From NCBI GenBank assembly GCA_016211105.1, contig JACQSX010000010.1, positions 62,001-126,000 of the forward strand: a stretch of 64,000 bases of DNA. Reading direction: 5' to 3'. Below, piece after piece: positions 12,375-63,300 of this stretch; the first letter of the stretch is position 1; every line of letters starts with the position of its first letter. The notes under the pieces are model-generated. The model was not told where the DNA came from. It did not search any database and was given only the letters and a program-made list of their open reading frames with translations. The stretch is from Acidobacteriota bacterium. GTDB lineage: Bacteria; Acidobacteriota; UBA6911; JACQSX01. The translations under genes and the position numbers were made by a program.

Positions 12375-13613
12375 ATGCGGATCCTGTTCCTCAACACGTC
12401 GTTTCCTCCGATGGCTCGCTCCGCAGCACATCTTTTTCACAATCTCGGCTGTAATTTGGTTTCCTTCGGGAACACGGTGAGCGTTGTCACTGAGCTGCCC
12501 TGGCGCAGATTAGGTTCTGCTGAGTGCGCCGACAAATATCGAAATGCTCGGTTCTGGCTACCGGAAAAAATGAATGGGATGAACGTGATTCGAGTGAGGG
12601 GTTTTCCTTTCCGGGAGGGCGGCCTGATCGGTCGTGGAGTAAACGCGCTGTTGTTGCCGTTGACTTTCTACCTTGGGGCCCGTTCGATGGGCGAGCATGA
12701 CGTGGCATTGGTCTATTGTCCTCCAGTGACCTTGGGGTTGGCCGCGTTTCTCATAAAGCAGCTCCATCGAATGCCTTTTGTCTTCAATGTGCAGGATATC
12801 TATCCGCAGACCTTGATCGATCTGGGTTTGATGAAAAACCGTTTGCTGATTCGTTTTTTTGAATGGGTGGAGCGATTTAGCTATTCGCGAGCAGCGGCGA
12901 TTGTTGTTCATTCGGAAGGGAATCGTCAATACCTGATTCATCGAAGAGGGGTCTCGGCAGAGAAGGTTGAGGTAATCCCAAACTGGGTGGATATCGATCT
13001 ATTCCGCCAGTCGGACCCTGAGAACGGTTTTCGAGAAAAACATGGGTTGGGCTCTAAATTCCTTGTCTGTTATGCTGGCACGATGGGGTACGCCCAGGAT
13101 CTGGGTCCCATAATTCAGGCTGCCAAGGAACTCCAAGAGATTGATGATATTCGGTTTCTGTTGATCGGAGAAGGAGTGCGAGCCATTGAGTGGCGGCGGA
13201 TGGCGGAGCGTTTATGTCTTGACAACGTCCAGTTCTTACCGTTGCAGCCTCCCTCAGTCTACCCATCGATCGTGGCCGCCTGTGATGTGGGTATGGTGCC
13301 TCTGACCACCCAGTTACGTACTCCAGTTGTCCCCGGCAAGCTTCTGGACTTCATGGGAGCGAGACGGCCTGTCATCGCGACTGTCAACGCAGACGGGGAT
13401 ACGAGCCAAATCATCCGCGAGGCAAATTGTGGCTACGCGTTCTCGCCCGATGATGGTCACAGCGTTGCTGCAGCGATTTTGACTTTATACCGGAATCCAA
13501 CGATCGCGCACGAACTGGGGCAAAACGGGGGAACGTACGCTGAGAGCCACTTTTCGCTTTCCGTATGTGCAGCCAAGTATGAGGCGCTTTTTAAAAGAAT
13601 CATTTCAAGTTAA
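12375..13613 (+). CDS. Glycosyltransferase family 4 (WbuB-like)
   Basis: Family 4 glycosyltransferase of 412 residues, resembling WbuB-type fucosamine or similar deoxyaminosugar transferases. It begins MRILFLNTSFPPMARSAAHL, and the acceptor domain has a hydrophobic segment (FVFNVQDIYPQTLIDLGLM) characteristic of the WbuB group. The donor domain starts at KFLVCYAGTMGYAQDLGPII and ends with VVPGKLLDFMGARRPVIATV. No E-x7-E motif is obvious, as in that subgroup. The gene is followed by a short relic of the 273-275 bp repeat found elsewhere in the window. Confidence 0.83.
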   Translation: MRILFLNTSFPPMARSAAHLFHNLGCNLVSFGNTVSVVTELPWRRLGSAECADKYRNARFWLPEKMNGMNVIRVRGFPFREGGLIGRGVNALLLPLTFYLGARSMGEHDVALVYCPPVTLGLAAFLIKQLHRMPFVFNVQDIYPQTLIDLGLMKNRLLIRFFEWVERFSYSRAAAIVVHSEGNRQYLIHRRGVSAEKVEVIPNWVDIDLFRQSDPENGFREKHGLGSKFLVCYAGTMGYAQDLGPIIQAAKELQEIDDIRFLLIGEGVRAIEWRRMAERLCLDNVQFLPLQPPSVYPSIVAACDVGMVPLTTQLRTPVVPGKLLDFMGARRPVIATVNADGDTSQIIREANCGYAFSPDDGHSVAAAILTLYRNPTIAHELGQNGGTYAESHFSLSVCAAKYEALFKRIISS

Positions 13614-13629: not shown

Positions 13630-13646
13630 CTAAGTACCTCGATTCA
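13630..13646 (+). repeat. Relic of the inverted-repeat element end
   Basis: The 17 bases CTAAGTACCTCGATTCA, 16 bases after the stop of the preceding GT4 gene, match the left end of the larger elements at 17,940 and 42,209. They have the same orientation relative to the upstream gene as the element at 17,940. The match stops abruptly and no right end is seen before the next gene, so this looks like a decayed copy or a solo end. Confidence 0.45.
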
Positions 13647-16024: not shown

Positions 16025-17935
16025 ATGGGAAAATTGGACGCATCAGAAACTTTGCTTTCGCAAACTTCCGTGGTCCGCGTAGCGGCGATCGCGGTTCCTA
16101 AAGCCAAGGAACCATTTTTGAAGCGCCCCCTTGACATTGCACTTTCTGCCGGAATGCTGCTTCTGTTGGCCCCGCTTTCTCTGATCATCGCCCTGGCCAT
16201 CAAGTTAGAAGACGGAGGTCCGATCTTTTACCGTCAGGAACGCTGGGGACAGGGTGGTACCCGCTTTCGAGTTTTCAAGTTTCGCACCATGGTGCCTGAC
16301 TCCGACCAAAAGTTCGGGTTGAAGCAGGCCGAGGAGAACGACCCGCGTATCACGCGCGTCGGTCGGATCCTGCGTGCCAGCGGCCTGGATGAGCTTCCAC
16401 AGATCCTCAACATTCTTAGGGGCGAGATGAGCTTTGTAGGCCCCAGAGCTTTGGCTGTGGGCGAGCTTGTCGATGATGGAAAAGGCAACTACATTAACTA
16501 TGAGGAGATTCCGGGACTGACGGAACGACTATCGGTCCGCCCCGGACTCACGAGTTTAGCCACCATCTATATTCCGAAAGACACGGTTGCGCTTAGAAAA
16601 TTTCGTTATGATCATCTCTACATCCGTAAACGCTCCCTTTGGCTCGATCTGCGCCTCATCGCTCTTTCCTTCTGGATCAGTCTCCAGGGGAAGTGGGAGA
16701 TTCGAGGCAGAAAAGTCTGGATGTTTGACGTTCTGAAAAAACCGGTGCCGCGGAGTCCGGGAGCGGAGACTTTCATCACCGTGGCGATAGTTTACGTATC
16801 TCTTTTGGCTGCCCTCGTTCTCAGGTTTTTGCGACTGGTCTTCGTCGATCAGATTAATTCGCCGACCGTCTACTGGGATTTTGTGCATTATTCGATGTTC
16901 GCTTTTCGAAATTCGATTCTCCCCGTACTCGCCTTTGGCCTCGTTGTTTTCTATGTCAGCAGGCGGGAAAGCAAATCCACTACCGCAGTTGCGGAGTTCA
17001 TGCGTGGTTTTTGTGCGCTCACGGGATTATTCATTGCCATGGTCATTTTGGGAGTCGTGGTGGGCCCTAACTTTACCTTTCCGCGAGTGACTTGGATCGG
17101 CGCATGGGTCTTAGCGTTCTTGGGTTTTAGTGCAATAACGATTACCCGGTGCTTAGATTCAAAAGTGAAGGAAAGAATTGTCTATAACCGAGCAAGCCAG
17201 ATGTTCATAGACTGTCTAATTGCGGGCGCCGCATTTTCCGCCACCTATGTAGCCGACGTCGACAGCCTCTTGCGTTCGCCGTCTCGAGTGCAAATTCTTA
17301 TTTTGGCGCCCTATATCATGCTCCTCTATATCGGAGTCAGCTACTTTTTCGGAGTTTACACCTTCGTGTGGAGGTTTACGGGGCTGAGAGAGACGTTAGT
17401 CATTGGCCAATCTGTAGGAGCTACCGCACTCGTTCTGCTCGTGTTGCGGATCTTGTTCTTCGAATCCTACGACTACTTACGAGTTCCCTTTGGCGCCCTT
17501 GTGCTGCAGCCCGTCTTGACCTTCCTCGGAGTTGTGGGCGTCCGAATGGCAAGACGGATCCAGTATCAACGGAATGTAAGAAGAGAACTGGAGAGACGAA
17601 GGGAACCAGGGCGCAAAATCCGATTACTCATCGCGGGCGTTGGAAAAGCTGCCCTCATCTTAATCCGGGAACTGGAGCGAATGTCACACTTTGAGCTTGT
17701 CGGATTCGTAGATAGTGACAAGCAAAAAACAGGACAACTGATTCATGGCGTTCCGGTGCTTGGGACCACCCAGATGCTAACGTCCGTTGCAAGGGCCTAT
17801 AACATTGAAGTAGTCGTTTTAGGTGTACTCGACGCCCCAGGCTCATTCATTCGCCAGCTTGTGAATCATTGCGACGAAATTTCGATCTCAGTCTTGACGA
17901 TCCCCGCCCTTTCTAAGATCGCCCTTCAAGAATGA
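16025..17935 (+). CDS. Phosphoglycosyl transferase fused to a truncated FlaA1/PglF-like module
   Basis: Protein of 636 residues with unusual order. Residues 30-230 are a monotopic bacterial sugar transferase (PglC/WcaJ type) that primes glycan synthesis on undecaprenyl phosphate. Its marks are one hydrophobic helix near 38-58, FKFRTM, the catalytic Asp122-Glu123 pair in SGLDELPQILNI, and FVGPRALAV. Two sets of about four hydrophobic helices follow, then a Rossmann CoA-binding-3-like domain (IRLLIAGVGKAALILIRELE, from about residue 530) as in FlaA1/PglF dehydratases. The frame stops at IPALSKIALQE, just where the dehydratase domain should begin. The stop is four bases before an inverted-repeat element. 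In the usual WbaP/WcaJ proteins the Rossmann-like part is N-terminal, so this order is inverted. Confidence 0.85.
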   Translation: MGKLDASETLLSQTSVVRVAAIAVPKAKEPFLKRPLDIALSAGMLLLLAPLSLIIALAIKLEDGGPIFYRQERWGQGGTRFRVFKFRTMVPDSDQKFGLKQAEENDPRITRVGRILRASGLDELPQILNILRGEMSFVGPRALAVGELVDDGKGNYINYEEIPGLTERLSVRPGLTSLATIYIPKDTVALRKFRYDHLYIRKRSLWLDLRLIALSFWISLQGKWEIRGRKVWMFDVLKKPVPRSPGAETFITVAIVYVSLLAALVLRFLRLVFVDQINSPTVYWDFVHYSMFAFRNSILPVLAFGLVVFYVSRRESKSTTAVAEFMRGFCALTGLFIAMVILGVVVGPNFTFPRVTWIGAWVLAFLGFSAITITRCLDSKVKERIVYNRASQMFIDCLIAGAAFSATYVADVDSLLRSPSRVQILILAPYIMLLYIGVSYFFGVYTFVWRFTGLRETLVIGQSVGATALVLLVLRILFFESYDYLRVPFGALVLQPVLTFLGVVGVRMARRIQYQRNVRRELERRREPGRKIRLLIAGVGKAALILIRELERMSHFELVGFVDSDKQKTGQLIHGVPVLGTTQMLTSVARAYNIEVVVLGVLDAPGSFIRQLVNHCDEISISVLTIPALSKIALQE

Positions 17936-18216
17936 CTGAGTATCTCGATTCATAAATACGGTAACGTTTGCTGATGAGGCTTGCGAGGCGAGATCCAGGA
18001 GCGAGGAGGAGGCGATGCAGGGGACATCGGCGACAACGAGCGACGCCGAGATCGCCCGCAATCCCCATCAGCCCGGAGGGTTGCGGCGGGATGGCCCCGC
18101 TTTCTTTGTCGCTCCTCCTCGCCAATGGGCCCCGCATTGACTCGTCGTCACTCCGCGAAATCAGGGCCATCGCACTCGCAACAAACGTTATCGTATTTAT
18201 GAATCGAGATACTTAG
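17936..18216 (+). repeat. Inverted-repeat element, family A, copy 1
   Basis: Core 17,940-18,212 (273 bases) is bounded by imperfect 31-base inverted repeats (GTATCTCGATTCATAAATAC at the left, its complement at the right), flanked by CTGA and TTAG. By eye it differs from the copy at 42,209-42,483 by about eleven substitutions and a two-base indel. The interior is GC-rich and can fold: CCGCAA pairs with TTGCGG around 18,056-18,095, and GCGAGGAGGAG recurs in inverted orientation. Short reading frames inside are not kept between copies. It begins directly after the sugar transferase stop. It could be a MITE-like non-autonomous element or a 3' regulatory module. Confidence 0.8.
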
Positions 18217-18318: not shown

Positions 18319-19503
18319 TTGAACTTTGATGTTGTTGTTATTGGGGCCTCGGCCCCCGGCTTGTACGCCGCCCAAATTCTGGCACGTGCTGGGAAGAAAG
18401 TTGTCGTTTTTGAGCGGCACGAAGAAATAAATCCGGCTCGTCGCACGCTAATTGTGACGCGTGAGCTGTGCAAAGTAATCGATGAGGTTCCGTTGCCTGC
18501 GTTGCTGCATCGGATTGGAGTCATGGCCATTTCATCGCCGGACGTCACTGCCCGGATTCGTTTGCGTGATCCGGATCCGATCGTGGAACGTTCGTACTTA
18601 ATCCAGTGGTTAGCGTCGAGGCTTCAGGATTCCGGTGGCGAATTGCGTTTAGGGTACCGCTTTGAGGATTTCGTCGAATCTGAGAATGGGCTGCACCTCC
18701 GCGTCCAAGGCCCAAATGGAGAGTTGCTCGTCTGCGTAAAAGACGCAGTGATCGGCGCGGACGGCGTGTTCAGCGAGGTGGCGCAGAGCGCCGGGATCCC
18801 TCGCCCGCCTTTTGTTTCTGTTTTGCAGGCAGAAGTTAGCCTCCCAGTGGGTTGGGATCCTGATGTTACTCAGGTTTGGTTCGATAGTAACGATACACGG
18901 TTTTTCTATTGGCTGATTCCTGAATCCGCTGAAAGAGGGGTGGTAGGTCTTGTAGGTGATTCTGGCGCCCAGGCGCGGGAACTTTTGAGGCGCTTTCTTA
19001 TTCAGCACAACTTAAAACCTGAAGTCTACCAAGGAGCCCAAGTTGCCATGCACCATCCGGGGCTCAAGCCGTGGAGCAAGGTCGGGGAAACGCCAGTGTA
19101 CCTGGTCGGTGATGCAGCGGGTCAGGTGAAGGTAACCACGGTTGGAGGTACCGTCACGGGACTGATGGGTGCGAAAGCCGCGGTGCGGGCCATTTTGAAC
19201 CGTACGTCCTATAAAGCGGAACTACGGGCGTTAAAGCGCGAACTCGATGTCCATTGGCTGATTCGCGCGCTTCTCGACCGATTAGATAATCTAGGATATG
19301 ATTCCCTCATAGGCGCTCTCTCTTCAAGCGTGCGCATTTTTTTGGCCCGGCACAACCGGGACTCTATGGCCCCTGTTTTCTGGCGTCTGCCCTTCCTCGA
19401 ACCTCGGTTGTTTAGGGTAGCCCTTAATAGCCTCCTGGGGAGGTCCGTTGAACGGGGAAAACGGGCTAAGCGAGCGCGCGCGGCCGCCACCGAGGTCGAT
19501 TGA
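18319..19503 (+). CDS. FAD-dependent geranylgeranyl-reductase-family oxidoreductase
   Basis: Flavoprotein of 394 residues of the geranylgeranyl/digeranylgeranyl reductase and squalene-epoxidase-like group. The dinucleotide motif at the start is VVVIGASAPGLYAAQILARA, followed by an Arg/Glu strand (VVFERHEE). The second FAD contact, YLVGDAAGQVKVTTVGGTV, has the GDAAGQVKxTT pattern of geranylgeranyl reductases. A possible job is reduction of an isoprenoid chain such as a lipid carrier or quinone; the glycan context makes a carrier plausible but does not prove it. The start is TTG with AAGGAGG six bases upstream. Confidence 0.8.
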   Translation: MNFDVVVIGASAPGLYAAQILARAGKKVVVFERHEEINPARRTLIVTRELCKVIDEVPLPALLHRIGVMAISSPDVTARIRLRDPDPIVERSYLIQWLASRLQDSGGELRLGYRFEDFVESENGLHLRVQGPNGELLVCVKDAVIGADGVFSEVAQSAGIPRPPFVSVLQAEVSLPVGWDPDVTQVWFDSNDTRFFYWLIPESAERGVVGLVGDSGAQARELLRRFLIQHNLKPEVYQGAQVAMHHPGLKPWSKVGETPVYLVGDAAGQVKVTTVGGTVTGLMGAKAAVRAILNRTSYKAELRALKRELDVHWLIRALLDRLDNLGYDSLIGALSSSVRIFLARHNRDSMAPVFWRLPFLEPRLFRVALNSLLGRSVERGKRAKRARAAATEVD

Positions 19504-40879: not shown

Positions 40880-42151
40880 ATGTTGGATCGAACTTTCATT
40901 CGAGAAAATATTGATCGGGTTCGAATGGCCTTGGGGAATCGCCACTCGGATGTGGATCTTTCCCAGTTTCAAAATCTGGATGCTTGTGAGCGCACATTCC
41001 GCAAGGAAGCGGAAGAACTCCGGGCAAAGCGTAACAGTGTCAGCGAACAAATCGGCCGCCTTACTCGACAAGGCCAGGATACGACAATCCTGAGAAAGGA
41101 AATGCGCGAAGTGGGAGACCGTATCAAATACCTGGAAGAAGAACTGGTGAGGCTGGAAGCATCGTTGAGTCAGTTTTTGCACTCCATTCCTAATGTACCG
41201 AACTCCAGCGTGCCCATCGGCCCGGACGAGAGCGCCAACCAGGTGATTCGCAGAGTGGGCGAGCTGCGGGCGATGGAGTTTGCTCCGAAGGATCATGTAG
41301 AACTGGGCGCCAGGTTGGGCATTCTGGACATAGAGCGCGCGACCAAGATCACTGGTGCGCGCTTTGCAAATTATTGGGGTCTGGGAGCCCGACTGGAGCG
41401 GGCGCTCATTACCTTCATGTTAGACGTGCATACGCGCGAGCATGGATATCAAGAGGTGTTGCCTCCGTTCATGGTGAACGATCAGGCCTTATTTGGGACC
41501 GGCCAGCTTCCAAAGTTTGCCGCTGACCTTTTTAAAATCGAGGGATTCAACTATTATCTCGTCCCCACTGCAGAAGTTCCCGTTACCAATCTTTACAGGG
41601 ATGAGGTCTTAGAGGGTGAAAAGCTCCCTGTGAAGTTGACTGCTTACACCCCATGTTTTCGTAGCGAGGCTGGGTCTTATGGAAAAGATACCCGTGGGCT
41701 GATCCGCCAACACCAGTTTAACAAAGTAGAACTGGTCTGTTTTTGCCGCCCGGAAGACTCCTATGATGAGCTGGAGAAGCTGACGGCGGCGGCAGAGACG
41801 ATCTTGCAAAGACTCGAGCTTCCCTATCAGGTTGTGGCACTGAGCACGGGCGATCTCGGTTTTGCCTCTGCCAAGACGTATGATCTTGAAGTTTGGCTTC
41901 CCAGCCAGCGACGTTATCGCGAAATTTCCTCTTGCAGCAACTTTGAAGATTTTCAGGCGCGCCGCGCCAACATTCGCTTTCGCCCGGATCCGCAATCAAA
42001 AGCCAGACTCGTGCACACGTTAAACGGTTCCGGATTGGCTGTGGGACGAACCTGGGTCGCGGTGGTGGAGAACTACCAGCAAGGGGATGGATCGGTAAAG
42101 ATCCCGGAAGTGCTGGTATCTTACATGGATGGAACTCGTGAGATTCGATGA
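40880..42151 (+). CDS. serS: Seryl-tRNA synthetase
   Basis: Charges tRNA-Ser with serine. The 423-residue protein is full length. It has the N-terminal long-helix coiled-coil arm (about residues 25-105) that contacts the tRNA variable arm, then the class II catalytic core. Motif 2 is in [17 protein letters not shown] and motif 3 in [18 protein letters not shown]. The TAEVPVTN serine-site segment is also present. There is no T-box-like leader in the 166 bases upstream. The gene converges on efp, with a family A repeat element between. Confidence 0.96.
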
Positions 42152-42208
42152 GATCTTCGAAGGGTTAAAAGTCAGCGCAACTTCATTCTGACCTTCCGAC
42201 TCCCCTGA

Positions 42209-42483
42209 GTACCTCGATTCATAAATACGATGACGTTTGCTGCGAGTGCGATGGCCCTGATTTCGCGGAGTGACGACGAGTCAATGCGGGGTGCCCATTG
42301 GCGAGGAGGAGCGACAAGGAAAGCGGGGCCATCCCGCCGCAACCCTCCAGGCTGATGGGGGTTGCGGACGATCTCGGCGTCGCTCGTTGTCGCCGATGTC
42401 CCCTGCATCGCCTCCTCCTCGCTCCTGCATCTCGCCGCGCAAGCCTCATCAACAAACGTTACCGTATTTATGAATCGAGGTAC
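42209..42483 (-). repeat. Inverted-repeat element, family A, copy 2
   Basis: 275 bases, in opposite orientation to the copy at 17,940-18,212 and about 96 percent identical by eye (about eleven substitutions and one two-base indel). The ends are GTACCTCGATTCATAAATAC and its complement, flanked by CTGA and CTAG. The right end directly abuts the efp stop codon at 42,484-42,486. Seen from efp, the element has the same orientation that copy 1 has from the sugar transferase gene. The element separates convergent serS and efp. Confidence 0.8.
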
Positions 42484-43044
42484 CTAGCGAGCCCGCTCGA
42501 CGTAGCGGCCGTCAATCGGATCGACCCGAATCCGTTCCCCCTCTTTTATGAATGGCGGGACCTGAACCACAACTCCAGTCTCCAGCTTGGCTGGTTTGGT
42601 GACGTTACTGATCGTAGCCCCTTTTAGTTCTGGTTCGGTTTCAACCACCTTGAGTTCTACGACCGGGGGAAGTTCAATTCCGATCGGGTTTCCTTCAAAA
42701 AATTCTACCTTAATTCTCAAGTTTTGAATCAGATAGTCAACCGCCGCCCCCAACATTTCGCTGTCCAGAGCGACTTGTTCGAAATTTTCCATGTTCATGA
42801 AATAGTGCATGTGGCCGTCGCTGTAAAGGTATTCCATCTCATGCTCTTCCAGTGAAGCTCTCGAGACCTCGTCACTGGCTCGAAACCGAACGTCAATGCT
42901 GGCTCTTGTCTTTAGATTGCGCAGCTTGGTTTGCACCATGGCGCGCAAATTTCCGGGCGTGTGGTGATGAAAGTCGAGCACCCGGTGAGGCGTCCCCTCA
43001 TAAACCAAAATCATGCCTTTTCGAATTCGAGTCGCAGGAATCAT
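42484..43044 (-). CDS. efp: Elongation factor P
   Basis: Three-domain translation factor of 186 residues that binds ribosomes stalled on proline runs and promotes peptide-bond formation. It starts [17 protein letters not shown], and the ATG has GGAGAGAGGA just upstream. A longer frame back to 43,179 has no family similarity. Domain III ends in the usual [16 protein letters not shown]. The tip of domain I reads [10 protein letters not shown]. The residue that is Lys (E. coli type) or Arg (Pseudomonas type) in modified EF-Ps is Asn32 here, so the EpmA lysylation and EarP rhamnosylation routes do not apply. The gene body ends at a repeat element. Confidence 0.95.
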
Positions 43045-60345: not shown

Positions 60346-63300
60346 TACTGCGGCGCCAGCGCGGTCAAGCTTCCAGGCTGTGCGATCAGTTGAAATCCCA
60401 GGAGTGGAAGGTTGCTCTCGATTACGAGGTAACCACCCAGAGTCGGCTTGAGATCCGGAATCAATTCACTGAGCAGTTTCGCCACTTTTTGTCCGGGCTG
60501 AAGGAACGCCAGCGAACTCTGTGTATTCCCTTGTCCGAGTGGGCGTCCATCGCTTGCAAACAGCTTGAGGGTGTAGAAAGCGGTTTGGTGGTTGGGGTTG
60601 TGTAGCGCGATGCCTGCTAAATAGGAAGTTCCCCCGACGTCCGCGTGTGCCACTTGTGGAAATACCATCCTGTCCTTCGGAAGGGCCTCAATGGCGACGG
60701 CTGCAATATATTGGTTGTCGGTGTGCCCATAGCGGATGGCGCCTAGCAGGCCGGACGCCGATCCGCTTATTCGTAGGGACCCCACATGGGATTTGGATAG
60801 GTCTGACATGTCAAATAGATCTCGCAATGACGTTTCCAGCATCTGCCCAGGCTCCAGAGTCATCGACTGAGGTTTCAGGTCCTCAAAGGGAGTACCCGAT
60901 TCGGCAAGCGGAGTGATCGTGATCCGGATTTGCTGCCGGGTGGGGTTAACCAGGTCCAATATCGTAAACAAGCGTACATTACCTGCGATCGGAGCTTCAA
61001 CGAAATGAGGAACATAGAGTAAGTCGCTGGTTTCTGAGATGGCACGCAGCCGCAGGCCGGTGATTCTCTGGTCGCCGTGAACTTCAAAGCCGCTAATGGG
61101 GCGATCACTGCGAACGCGGATATATCCGAAAGGCAGGGCTGCCTTGACCCATTCAGACAGGAATTTATGAAAATGGCCAAAAGGTCGAATGGAAACTGAT
61201 TGTGAAATGACTGCCTGTCCCCGTGGACCATACACCGTGATTTCAATTCTGGCTGAAGAAGCGTTGGGATTGACGAGATGGATCTCCGTGTCTAACGTAG
61301 AGGAAGGAAAAGTTGACGATGTTGCAGAGGCGCTTGCCAATAGAAAGACCGATTCAGTGGAGGTAGCGGCCGTAGCGTCAGCGCCGAGCAGAAAACCGGG
61401 ACCACCGTAAAGAAAATATCCTTTGACATCCGGCGAATTACTGCGTACTTGCAGCCAGCCTGAGGATAGCGATTGATAGCCAAACATTTCGGAGTCCAGT
61501 AGAGAGATCTGTTTCCCGGCGGAAAGCGTGATGAGGCGAGGATTGTCCGCGTCCACGATTTGCCCCTCATCATCGAACAAGACGAGGCCGATGATCGCGT
61601 CGTTAACGCCGGTGTTCGCCAATGCTACTCCGGTGAATGTGCTCCCATTGGAGGAAACGCGCGCAATGTGCAGCGCATTCTCCGTCGGATGGATCAGCAA
61701 AAGATAGGATCCGCGCGATGCGCTTCTAAACGAGGAGACCCGGATGAACAGGTTTCCCACGGTTGGGCTCGCAAACACGATGCGCGAATCCTGCGTCCCT
61801 CCGTCTTTTAGGTCATTGTTTTCTAAGAATCCCCCACCTGTGTTAGGAATCCGGTTCCCGAAAGCATCTAGAATTTCTAGAAAAGAGTCCAAAGTGGACG
61901 CAGGGGTCAATCGTTTGGCGTAGGTTTCGATTACATAAAGCTGGTTTGGCCGCAATGTGAAACGGTAGAAGTCGACATCGGTATCACTGCTGATCTGGCC
62001 ACTGAGGACGTGCTGGTCATCGGTAAGCGTTGCGGCAGCCGCAACGCTGTCATTGGGTTCCATCTCTCGGAGCTGCGCCGGCGGCAGTCGGAAATTGTTA
62101 CGCAAGATCCTTCTCTCACTGAAAATTCGACCCAGTAAGTCTTCATGGGCGCCGTTGTTCAATTTTTGATCCGCTGCAATCAGAGCCTGCGCAGCTTCTT
62201 CGAAGGTTGCGTCGGTCCGATAAAGAAATTGGCTTTCCAGAAGGAGTCGAATGAGTGTATCGCGCGCTTGCTGGGTGGCGCCGGATCGCTTGAAAAAATC
62301 CCACAAACTCGCCGCCCAGATTGTCCCGTTACGGTGAACGTTCCCACCCGGATCGTAGTTGAAAAACGTTTCGTCGCTTTCCACCGACCGAAGGCGAGGA
62401 ACCTCCGAAACGCGGTCGTAAAATGTCGCATCCCATTTGCCGATCAGTTCGTCGTGAAAGCCATCCGAATATGGAACAAAAAACAGCGCCGCTAGAATAT
62501 CGCCGAAACCTTCACCCAGCGATTGCGCTTCATGGGAGCGTGCGAACCCGGGGACCTGGTCATCTTGAATGGCGTGGCCGTATTCATGAGCCACAATTTC
62601 TCCATCTTCGGCATCGTGGATACCACCTAACCCGAAAACCAGCTCCCGGGTCTCCGGACTGTAAAACGATTGGTCTTGGCTCCGGCCAAAATCGATAAAC
62701 CCGTTTGCATTTACAGGGATGGCGCGGTTGTTTACGTTGTGGAAACCGAGTTGTTGAATGTACCGTTGAATCGAATCAATCGTGTAATAAACGTTGACTT
62801 CGTTGAAACGCACATCGCAGCGACGATACCAAAAATTGGGATCTCCCTTGGCGCGAGCAGCGACTGGAACATTGGCGCCTGCAGTGGTTACGAATTCGCC
62901 ATCCAGCATTCCCGAGGAAGACAGCCCCGCCAGCTCTACTTCGCGATACGCCACCACAGGAATGAGTGCAGGCGCGCAATTGGCGTCAGCCGTCGTGGGG
63001 TCTCTTCCGGTATCCCGCGCAAGCGGGTCGCGCAGTGTGGGGTCCTGTAAGGTCACCACCGGGTTCGGAAAGAAGACCCGGCCGCGCGCGAATTGCAACC
63101 GATTCAATTTCTGCAAGATTTCTCCGGATTCTCCGTCGACCAAATAACTCCAGTCTCCCAACGGGGTGTTTGCCGGAATCTCGACCCTCCAAACGTAACG
63201 AAGGCTCTGCTCATGCTCCATGAAATACAGGCCTTCGCGCATGGGTCCGCGTAAGTTGCGGAGATCCGGTTTCAGGTCGTTTAAAACAAGCATGCGAGCC

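Follow-up and report, generated by a model that had tools for sequence, protein, structure and literature searches.

A MITE-like inverted-repeat element of Acidobacteriota that targets C-TNA-G, often abuts stop codons and is mostly co-oriented with neighbouring genes

Analysis of a 64,000-nucleotide stretch of an Acidobacteriota genome (the window) revealed two copies of an inverted-repeat element, each abutting the stop codon of a gene. Comparison of the copies found throughout this genome and in its relatives, an uncultured group of Acidobacteriota, indicates that the element behaves as a non-autonomous inverted-repeat transposon of the MITE-like kind. The account that we favour, with moderate confidence, is that it is mobilised in trans, inserts at C-TNA-G, regenerates the stop codons at which it lands, keeps its orientation relative to genes by selection and has conserved the pairing of a three-way junction.

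Results

The two copies in the window

Copy 1 (17936–18216, plus strand) is bounded by CTGAG on its left and CTTAG on its right. Its A-end is directed toward the stop codon of a bacterial sugar transferase gene (16025–17935, plus strand), the last base of whose TGA (17,933–17,935) immediately precedes the element; a FAD-binding oxidoreductase gene (18319–19503, plus strand) follows in the same direction, 102 bp past the B-end. The left terminal inverted repeat at the A-end (17936–17973, plus strand; CTGAGTATCTCGATTCATAAATACGGTAACGTTTGCTG) pairs with the right one at the B-end (18179–18216, minus strand) over 38–40 bp with 93% complementarity. The border triplets are TGA on the left (17937–17939, plus strand) and TTA on the right (18213–18215), so that copy 1 has an imperfect duplication. 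Copy 2 (42205–42487, minus strand) is inverted relative to copy 1, with its A-end toward the stop codon of efp, the gene for elongation factor P (42484–43044, minus strand). This stop, a TAG (the complement of 42,484–42,486), lies inside the terminal C-TAG-G of the element, and the 3′ end of a seryl-tRNA synthetase gene (40880–42151, plus strand) is 53 bp from the B-end. Across the two copies, the terminal inverted repeats are 34–40 bp long and 91–93% complementary.

A reading of the window from its sequence only had placed the elements directly 3′ of stop codons, and both copies do abut a stop. The same reading had started copy 1 four bases past the stop; with CTNAG recognised at both sides, the copies are 281 and 283 bp long, not ~277 and 275 bp. 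Their identity, put by eye at about 96%, is 94–95% as measured. The relic that it had described after the stop of a GT4-type glycosyltransferase gene (12375–13613, plus strand) is an exact 17-bp element end, CTAAGTACCTCGATTCA (13630–13646, plus strand), situated 16 bp past the stop and lacking a partner arm.

Elsewhere in the window, on the minus strand at 54151–54167, the sequence agrees with the element end over 13 bp (CTTAGTACCTCGA) and then diverges at once, which may mark another relic. At 60094–60371, the 7-base unit YTGYGAC (CTGTGAC/CTGCGAC/TTGTGAC) is repeated in tandem between a plus-strand gene ending at 60160 and a minus-strand gene ending at 60345.

Distribution and coding content

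A search of the whole 3.5-Mb genome identified some 25–30 full or partial copies, together with solo ends and mini-palindromes. The 17-base end motif has 57 matches in the genome and its reversed control has 0; with controls at zero for both the 17-base and the 22-base end motifs, a chance origin of the repeat was rejected. The element was matched in 15 of 40 genomes (the window's own and relatives), the best relatives having ~80% identity, and across relatives in three bacterial families its length stays within 277–284 bp. The inner end core motif, TTCATAAATACGRTRACGTTTG, occurs only in three families of the class, again with controls at zero. A scan of genome contigs identified a sister genome of the same genus, a groundwater Acidobacteria MAG, and also one match in an Actinomycetota MAG; scans of viral contigs, plasmids and phages returned no match. 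A short overlapping frame matches no family, and the length differences between copies are not multiples of three. With terminal inverted repeats of 36–38 bp, a length under about 300 bp and a non-coding interior, the element has the build of a bacterial MITE.

Target site, duplication and empty sites

A cytosine precedes the border triplet, at position −4, in all 21 of the paired copies of this genome, full-length and internally deleted, and a guanine follows the far triplet, at position +4, in 19 of the 21; on this basis we assign the target as C-TNA-G. In genus g15, which comprises three species (G024, G026 and G035), identical triplets are found on both sides of 16 of 50 copies, where permutation predicts 9.5 (p = 0.0035), and the same test reveals no excess of duplication at 4 bp. 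The signal is weak in the window's own genome, at 8 of 21 copies against 5.4 expected (p = 0.12). About half of the copies have unlike border triplets, more than fresh transposition would leave, and these may be the product of decay, of recombination between copies or of an unusual joining step.

Empty sites are also found. Other copies of a host repeat carry a single TCA where the filled ones are flanked by a triplet at both borders, and the insert that directly follows the stop of a G024 gene is absent from the corresponding gene end in G035; a further empty site, in G001, has diverged too far to be read base-exactly. The target-site duplication (TNA) and empty sites expected of a MITE are thus both in evidence, more weakly so in the window's own genome. 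The MITE-like insertion proposed in the sequence-only reading is borne out by the many copies, the inverted ends, the 3-bp TNA duplication and the empty sites.

Some copies are associated with other repeats. In genus g15, the element is present at one fixed site within another dispersed repeat, GGCCTCCTCAACGTACTCAAGAGTACGTTTGCGGGGGCC (L202:1943, L203:10425, L207:2503, L209:1963, L213:10000 and L231:8321), and these copies are probably a single insertion that spread along with its host repeat. Those at L189:9398, L206:5906 and L230:6711 directly adjoin what looks like the end of an insertion sequence, CCTAGCCCGGATTATGCAT..., itself found at L233 and L237, which suggests composite or nested elements.

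Stop codons at the borders

The stop codons TAA, TGA and TAG are contained in CTAAG, CTGAG and CTTAG, respectively, and, as the first base of the element is G and its last is C, each border again reads CTNAG. The sequence thus shows that insertion at C-TAA-G, C-TGA-G or CT-TAG regenerates the stop, the initial G restoring it. In this genome, the stop occupies exactly position −4 or −5 at 16 of 66 sites. Element-free, non-coding CTNAG sites are stop-aligned in 19 of 166 cases in this genome and 41 of 243 in the other genus; compared with these 60 of 409 available sites (15%), the 16 stop-aligned copies out of 70 represent a ~1.6-fold use (p = 0.06), and removal of likely duplicates leaves 16 of 61 (p = 0.02). 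The preference for stop-codon-like targets that had been suggested therefore stands in so far as CTNAG holds all three stops, but the use of stop-aligned sites is raised by ~1.6-fold only. We attribute most of the abutment to passive causes, namely the choice of target and the loss of insertions within genes, which leaves a mild extra excess; a dedicated recognition of stops is not needed.

Orientation relative to genes

The ends of the element are near-palindromic, and it is the interior that tells the A-end from the B-end. For the orientation test, the elements were masked before gene calling, and the gene calls came from a home-made caller. Between co-directional genes, 37 of 44 copies (84%) run from A to B along the genes (p = 5e-6), and the A-end (the CTGATGAGG side) faces gene 3′ ends up to 40 bp away in a ratio of 33:6 (p = 1.4e-5). 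When orthologous or co-amplified copies are left out, the corresponding ratios are 33:5 and 31:6. The bias amounts to 26:3 where a 3′ end lies within 60 bp and to 11:4 otherwise, while divergent gene pairs hold 8 copies and convergent pairs also 8. Spurious open reading frames inside the element were rejected as the cause after repetition of the test with masking and with longer, higher-scoring genes only. The shared orientation noticed for the window copies is thus a wider property, with the A-end toward the upstream stop in 33 of the 39 cases within 40 bp, and the random orientation that would have spoken against it is not seen (37:7 and 33:6).

A terminator-like hairpin, GGCGGGATGGCCCCGCT, followed by the T-tract TTCTTTG, is present on the gene-sense strand of copy 1 (18085–18108, plus strand). 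In this genome, where the signal is strong, 12 of 13 copies have a sense-strand GC hairpin with a T-tract, and, at a cut-off of −8 kcal/mol, 59 of 63 copies are terminator-like in sense compared with 17 of 63 in antisense. In the largest g15 subfamily, the hairpin (~−8.4) is near the shuffled mean (−7.3), and some of the T-tracts are broken.

Fold and covariation

The predicted fold of the element has z scores of −12.3 as RNA and −9.1 as DNA, and single sequences fold back as one long hairpin. This fold-back was rejected as the conserved structure: across 43 full copies from three families, its inner part contains 14 double-change cells against 10.4 after shuffling, and there is no covariation above the shuffles. 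A three-way junction, in contrast, has 56 double-change cells in the 43 full copies, compared with 14.3 after shuffling and at most 6 when the partners are slid. The junction is formed by the terminal stem and two arms, at alignment columns 36–146 (17970–18072 in copy 1, plus strand) and 154–259 (18080–18182, plus strand), each with compensatory changes. On a tree built without the junction columns, at least 14 inner and at least 42 outer double changes are independent. G·T and A·C mismatches are equal in number (10:10 inner and 39:42 outer), a symmetry that is unlike a constraint on one strand of RNA and that looks to be at the level of DNA; a constraint on RNA only was rejected on this count. 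Such a pattern would follow either from conserved hairpins in the DNA or from the correction of short palindromes in association with replication.

Solo ends, mini-palindromes and a group II intron

Some 13 solo 17-bp ends share almost nothing past position 17 or 18; they are flanked on either side by unrelated DNA and lack a second arm, and the boundary always falls after ATTCA or one to two bases later. In the window's genome (G000), solo ends are located at C4:266158, C13:9465, C13:25079, C22:196013, C24:28357, C25:114002, C27:50286 and C43:107147. Decay of mini-palindromes was rejected as their origin, since a second arm is not detected beyond chance. The mini-palindromes themselves, of 22–35 bp, consist of two outer ends head to head (G000 C10:15839-15872, C28:62238-62271, C39:40039-40072, C42:10673-10694 and C7:29461-29495) and may be copies of the element with extreme internal deletions.

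A group II intron (RF02003) of G016 starts exactly past the outer 17 bp of the element, CTTAGTACCCCGATTCA or CTTAGTACGCCAATTCA, in two copies, and a third copy starts after the last nine bases of these 17 bp, ...CCCAATTCA; the loci are L158 (G016:C63, position 1501 onward), L325 and L333. The element end appears to serve the intron as an insertion site. A search of the window's genome found no RF02003, and group II introns were rejected as the source of the solo ends there. The boundary common to the solo ends and the G016 introns coincides with the dyad centre of 34-bp palindromes.

Search for a mobiliser

No transposase with matching ends was found among the PF01609, PF13359 and Y1/RAYT genes of the carriers. 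The PF01609 DDE transposases of nine genomes are without these ends, PF13359 is absent from the carriers, and Y1 genes, which most carriers possess, are equally common in non-carriers; at seven carrier Y1 loci, no element ends adjoin the gene. Two pairs of CTNAG ends 2.6–2.7 kb apart (C8:35126-37824 and C27:50286-52861) were considered as autonomous copies and rejected, as they enclose ordinary genes.

Discussion

In the account that we favour, an element of ~273 bp, accompanied by the TNA that it duplicates, would be mobilised in trans by a transposase other than those checked. It inserts at C-TNA-G and, having G as its first base and C as its last, leaves CTNAG at each border, as the copies display. 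With the stop kept after insertion, arrivals at stop codons would be neutral and those inside genes would be lost. The surviving copies lie mostly on the strand of the flanking genes with the A-end toward the stop. We attribute this bias to selection: transcripts that run through the element in the sense direction, from A to B, would be tolerated or of use, possibly as 3′ ends, and those of the opposite direction would do harm. The three-way-junction pairing, kept through compensatory changes with mismatches that show no strand preference, may reflect a requirement of mobility for a hairpin or cruciform in the DNA, or else the repeated correction of short palindromes in replication. Against the MITE-like reading, the solo 17-bp ends and the 22–35-bp palindromes are not ordinary products of transposition, no transposase bearing these ends came to light among the PF01609, PF13359 and Y1 genes, and the TNA duplication is weak in this genome.

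The main alternatives concern the orientation and the function of the transcript. Since the palindromic target offers no sequence cue, either selection removes the other orientation or insertion senses transcription. We infer the former, and the bias suggests that the host tolerates or uses the element in one direction only. An orientation fixed instead by the insertion reaction, through coupling to transcription, R-loops or the replication fork, would accommodate both the 84% bias in tandem contexts and the absence of a cue in the target, but we think it rather improbable: the bias is stronger near 3′ ends than far from them, and replication coupling alone would cap it at the co-orientation of genes with replication, which is usually well below 84%. 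A somewhat better, though still unlikely, proposition is a mobile 3′-end module, in which the sense transcript serves as a terminator or a stabilising 3′ untranslated region and copies are kept for the better 3′ ends that they provide. The transferable 3′-end module of the sequence-only reading is compatible with the A-end facing nearby stops and with the prevalence of the hairpin and T-tract in sense, but the hairpin of the largest g15 subfamily is weak, copies are as numerous in divergent pairs, where no gene 3′ end is on offer, as in convergent ones, and the covariation has no G·U preference. Moreover, many copies lie between close co-directional genes, and a sense-oriented terminator would be expected to have polar effects in operons, a point against simple selection for termination. 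We give little credence to a wider version, in which a mobile palindrome has become a directional genome accessory: its first base rebuilds the stop codons into which it inserts, so that no damage is done, one orientation is retained because the sense strand makes the 3′ ends of mRNAs or shields them, the three-way junction is kept across bacterial families, and an undescribed enzyme acting on folded DNA may mobilise it.

A view of the copies as ordinary genes for structured non-coding RNAs, spread by duplication, would explain the conserved length of 277–284 bp and the covariation across three families, and yet is extremely improbable given the sharp CTNAG borders in unrelated flanks, the TNA duplication and the empty sites; in addition, the element matches no Rfam family at the gathering score, has no promoter-like site and lacks strand asymmetry in its wobble pairs. 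A REP or TIR repeat moved by a Y1 (HUH) tyrosine transposase, RAYT or TIRYT, is very unlikely, even though the element resembles REPs in being self-complementary, intergenic, near 3′ ends, a supplier of stops and present as singles and head-to-head pairs, and TIRYT genes do occur in Acidobacteria (PMC3733652). To the equal frequency of Y1 genes in non-carriers and the seven Y1 loci without adjoining ends must be added the absence of a GTAG tag and the 3-bp duplication, which is unexpected for Y1 transposition.

The MITE-like transposon that we favour has partial counterparts among known systems. IS5-family elements of the IS1031 type duplicate TNA, and the eukaryotic PIF/Harbinger-Tourist MITEs duplicate TWA in a CTTAG-like target, so that a 3-bp TNA duplication in a palindromic CTNAG-like target is common to both and to the element. 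The TNA (TWA) duplication of these groups is present here, but a cognate DDE transposase with the same ends was not found among the PF01609 and PF13359 families in carriers, and the element end, GTACCTCG..., is one that we take to be unlike those of IS5/IS1031 and the PIF/Harbinger family. Bacterial MITEs (Correia/NEMIS, RUP, ERIC and YPAL) are likewise short, non-coding, inverted or palindromic, intergenic and dispersed; compared with them, the element has a longer GC-rich interior, a covarying three-way junction, strong co-orientation with genes and no known partner transposase, and its target is C-TNA-G where that of Correia, RUP and ERIC is TA. Folding near genes is common to YPAL, ERIC and the element, and YPAL may be co-transcribed with upstream genes and influence them (PMC2229807). 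REP repeats are palindromic, lie near gene 3′ ends and often supply the stop codon, characteristics shared by the element with REP/BIME and with TIR repeats (RAYT/TIRYT) (PMC3733652). At 280 bp rather than 20–40 bp, with a TNA duplication, it has neither the 20–40-bp stem-loop with GTAG at one end that defines a REP (PMC3733652) nor, at the seven carrier loci checked, repeats flanking a Y1 gene. The element cannot be filed under IS5/PIF or RAYT because the defining link to a transposase was tested and not found.

The covariation of the element sets a branched fold apart from the fold-back favoured by energy prediction on its own. Stop codons contained in a target palindrome, combined with a first base that rebuilds them, offer a simple mechanism for the repeatedly observed abutment of stops by small bacterial repeats, to which the element adds a measurable bias of orientation relative to genes. 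With its orphan ends, the search for a new transposase in Acidobacteriota has a defined target.
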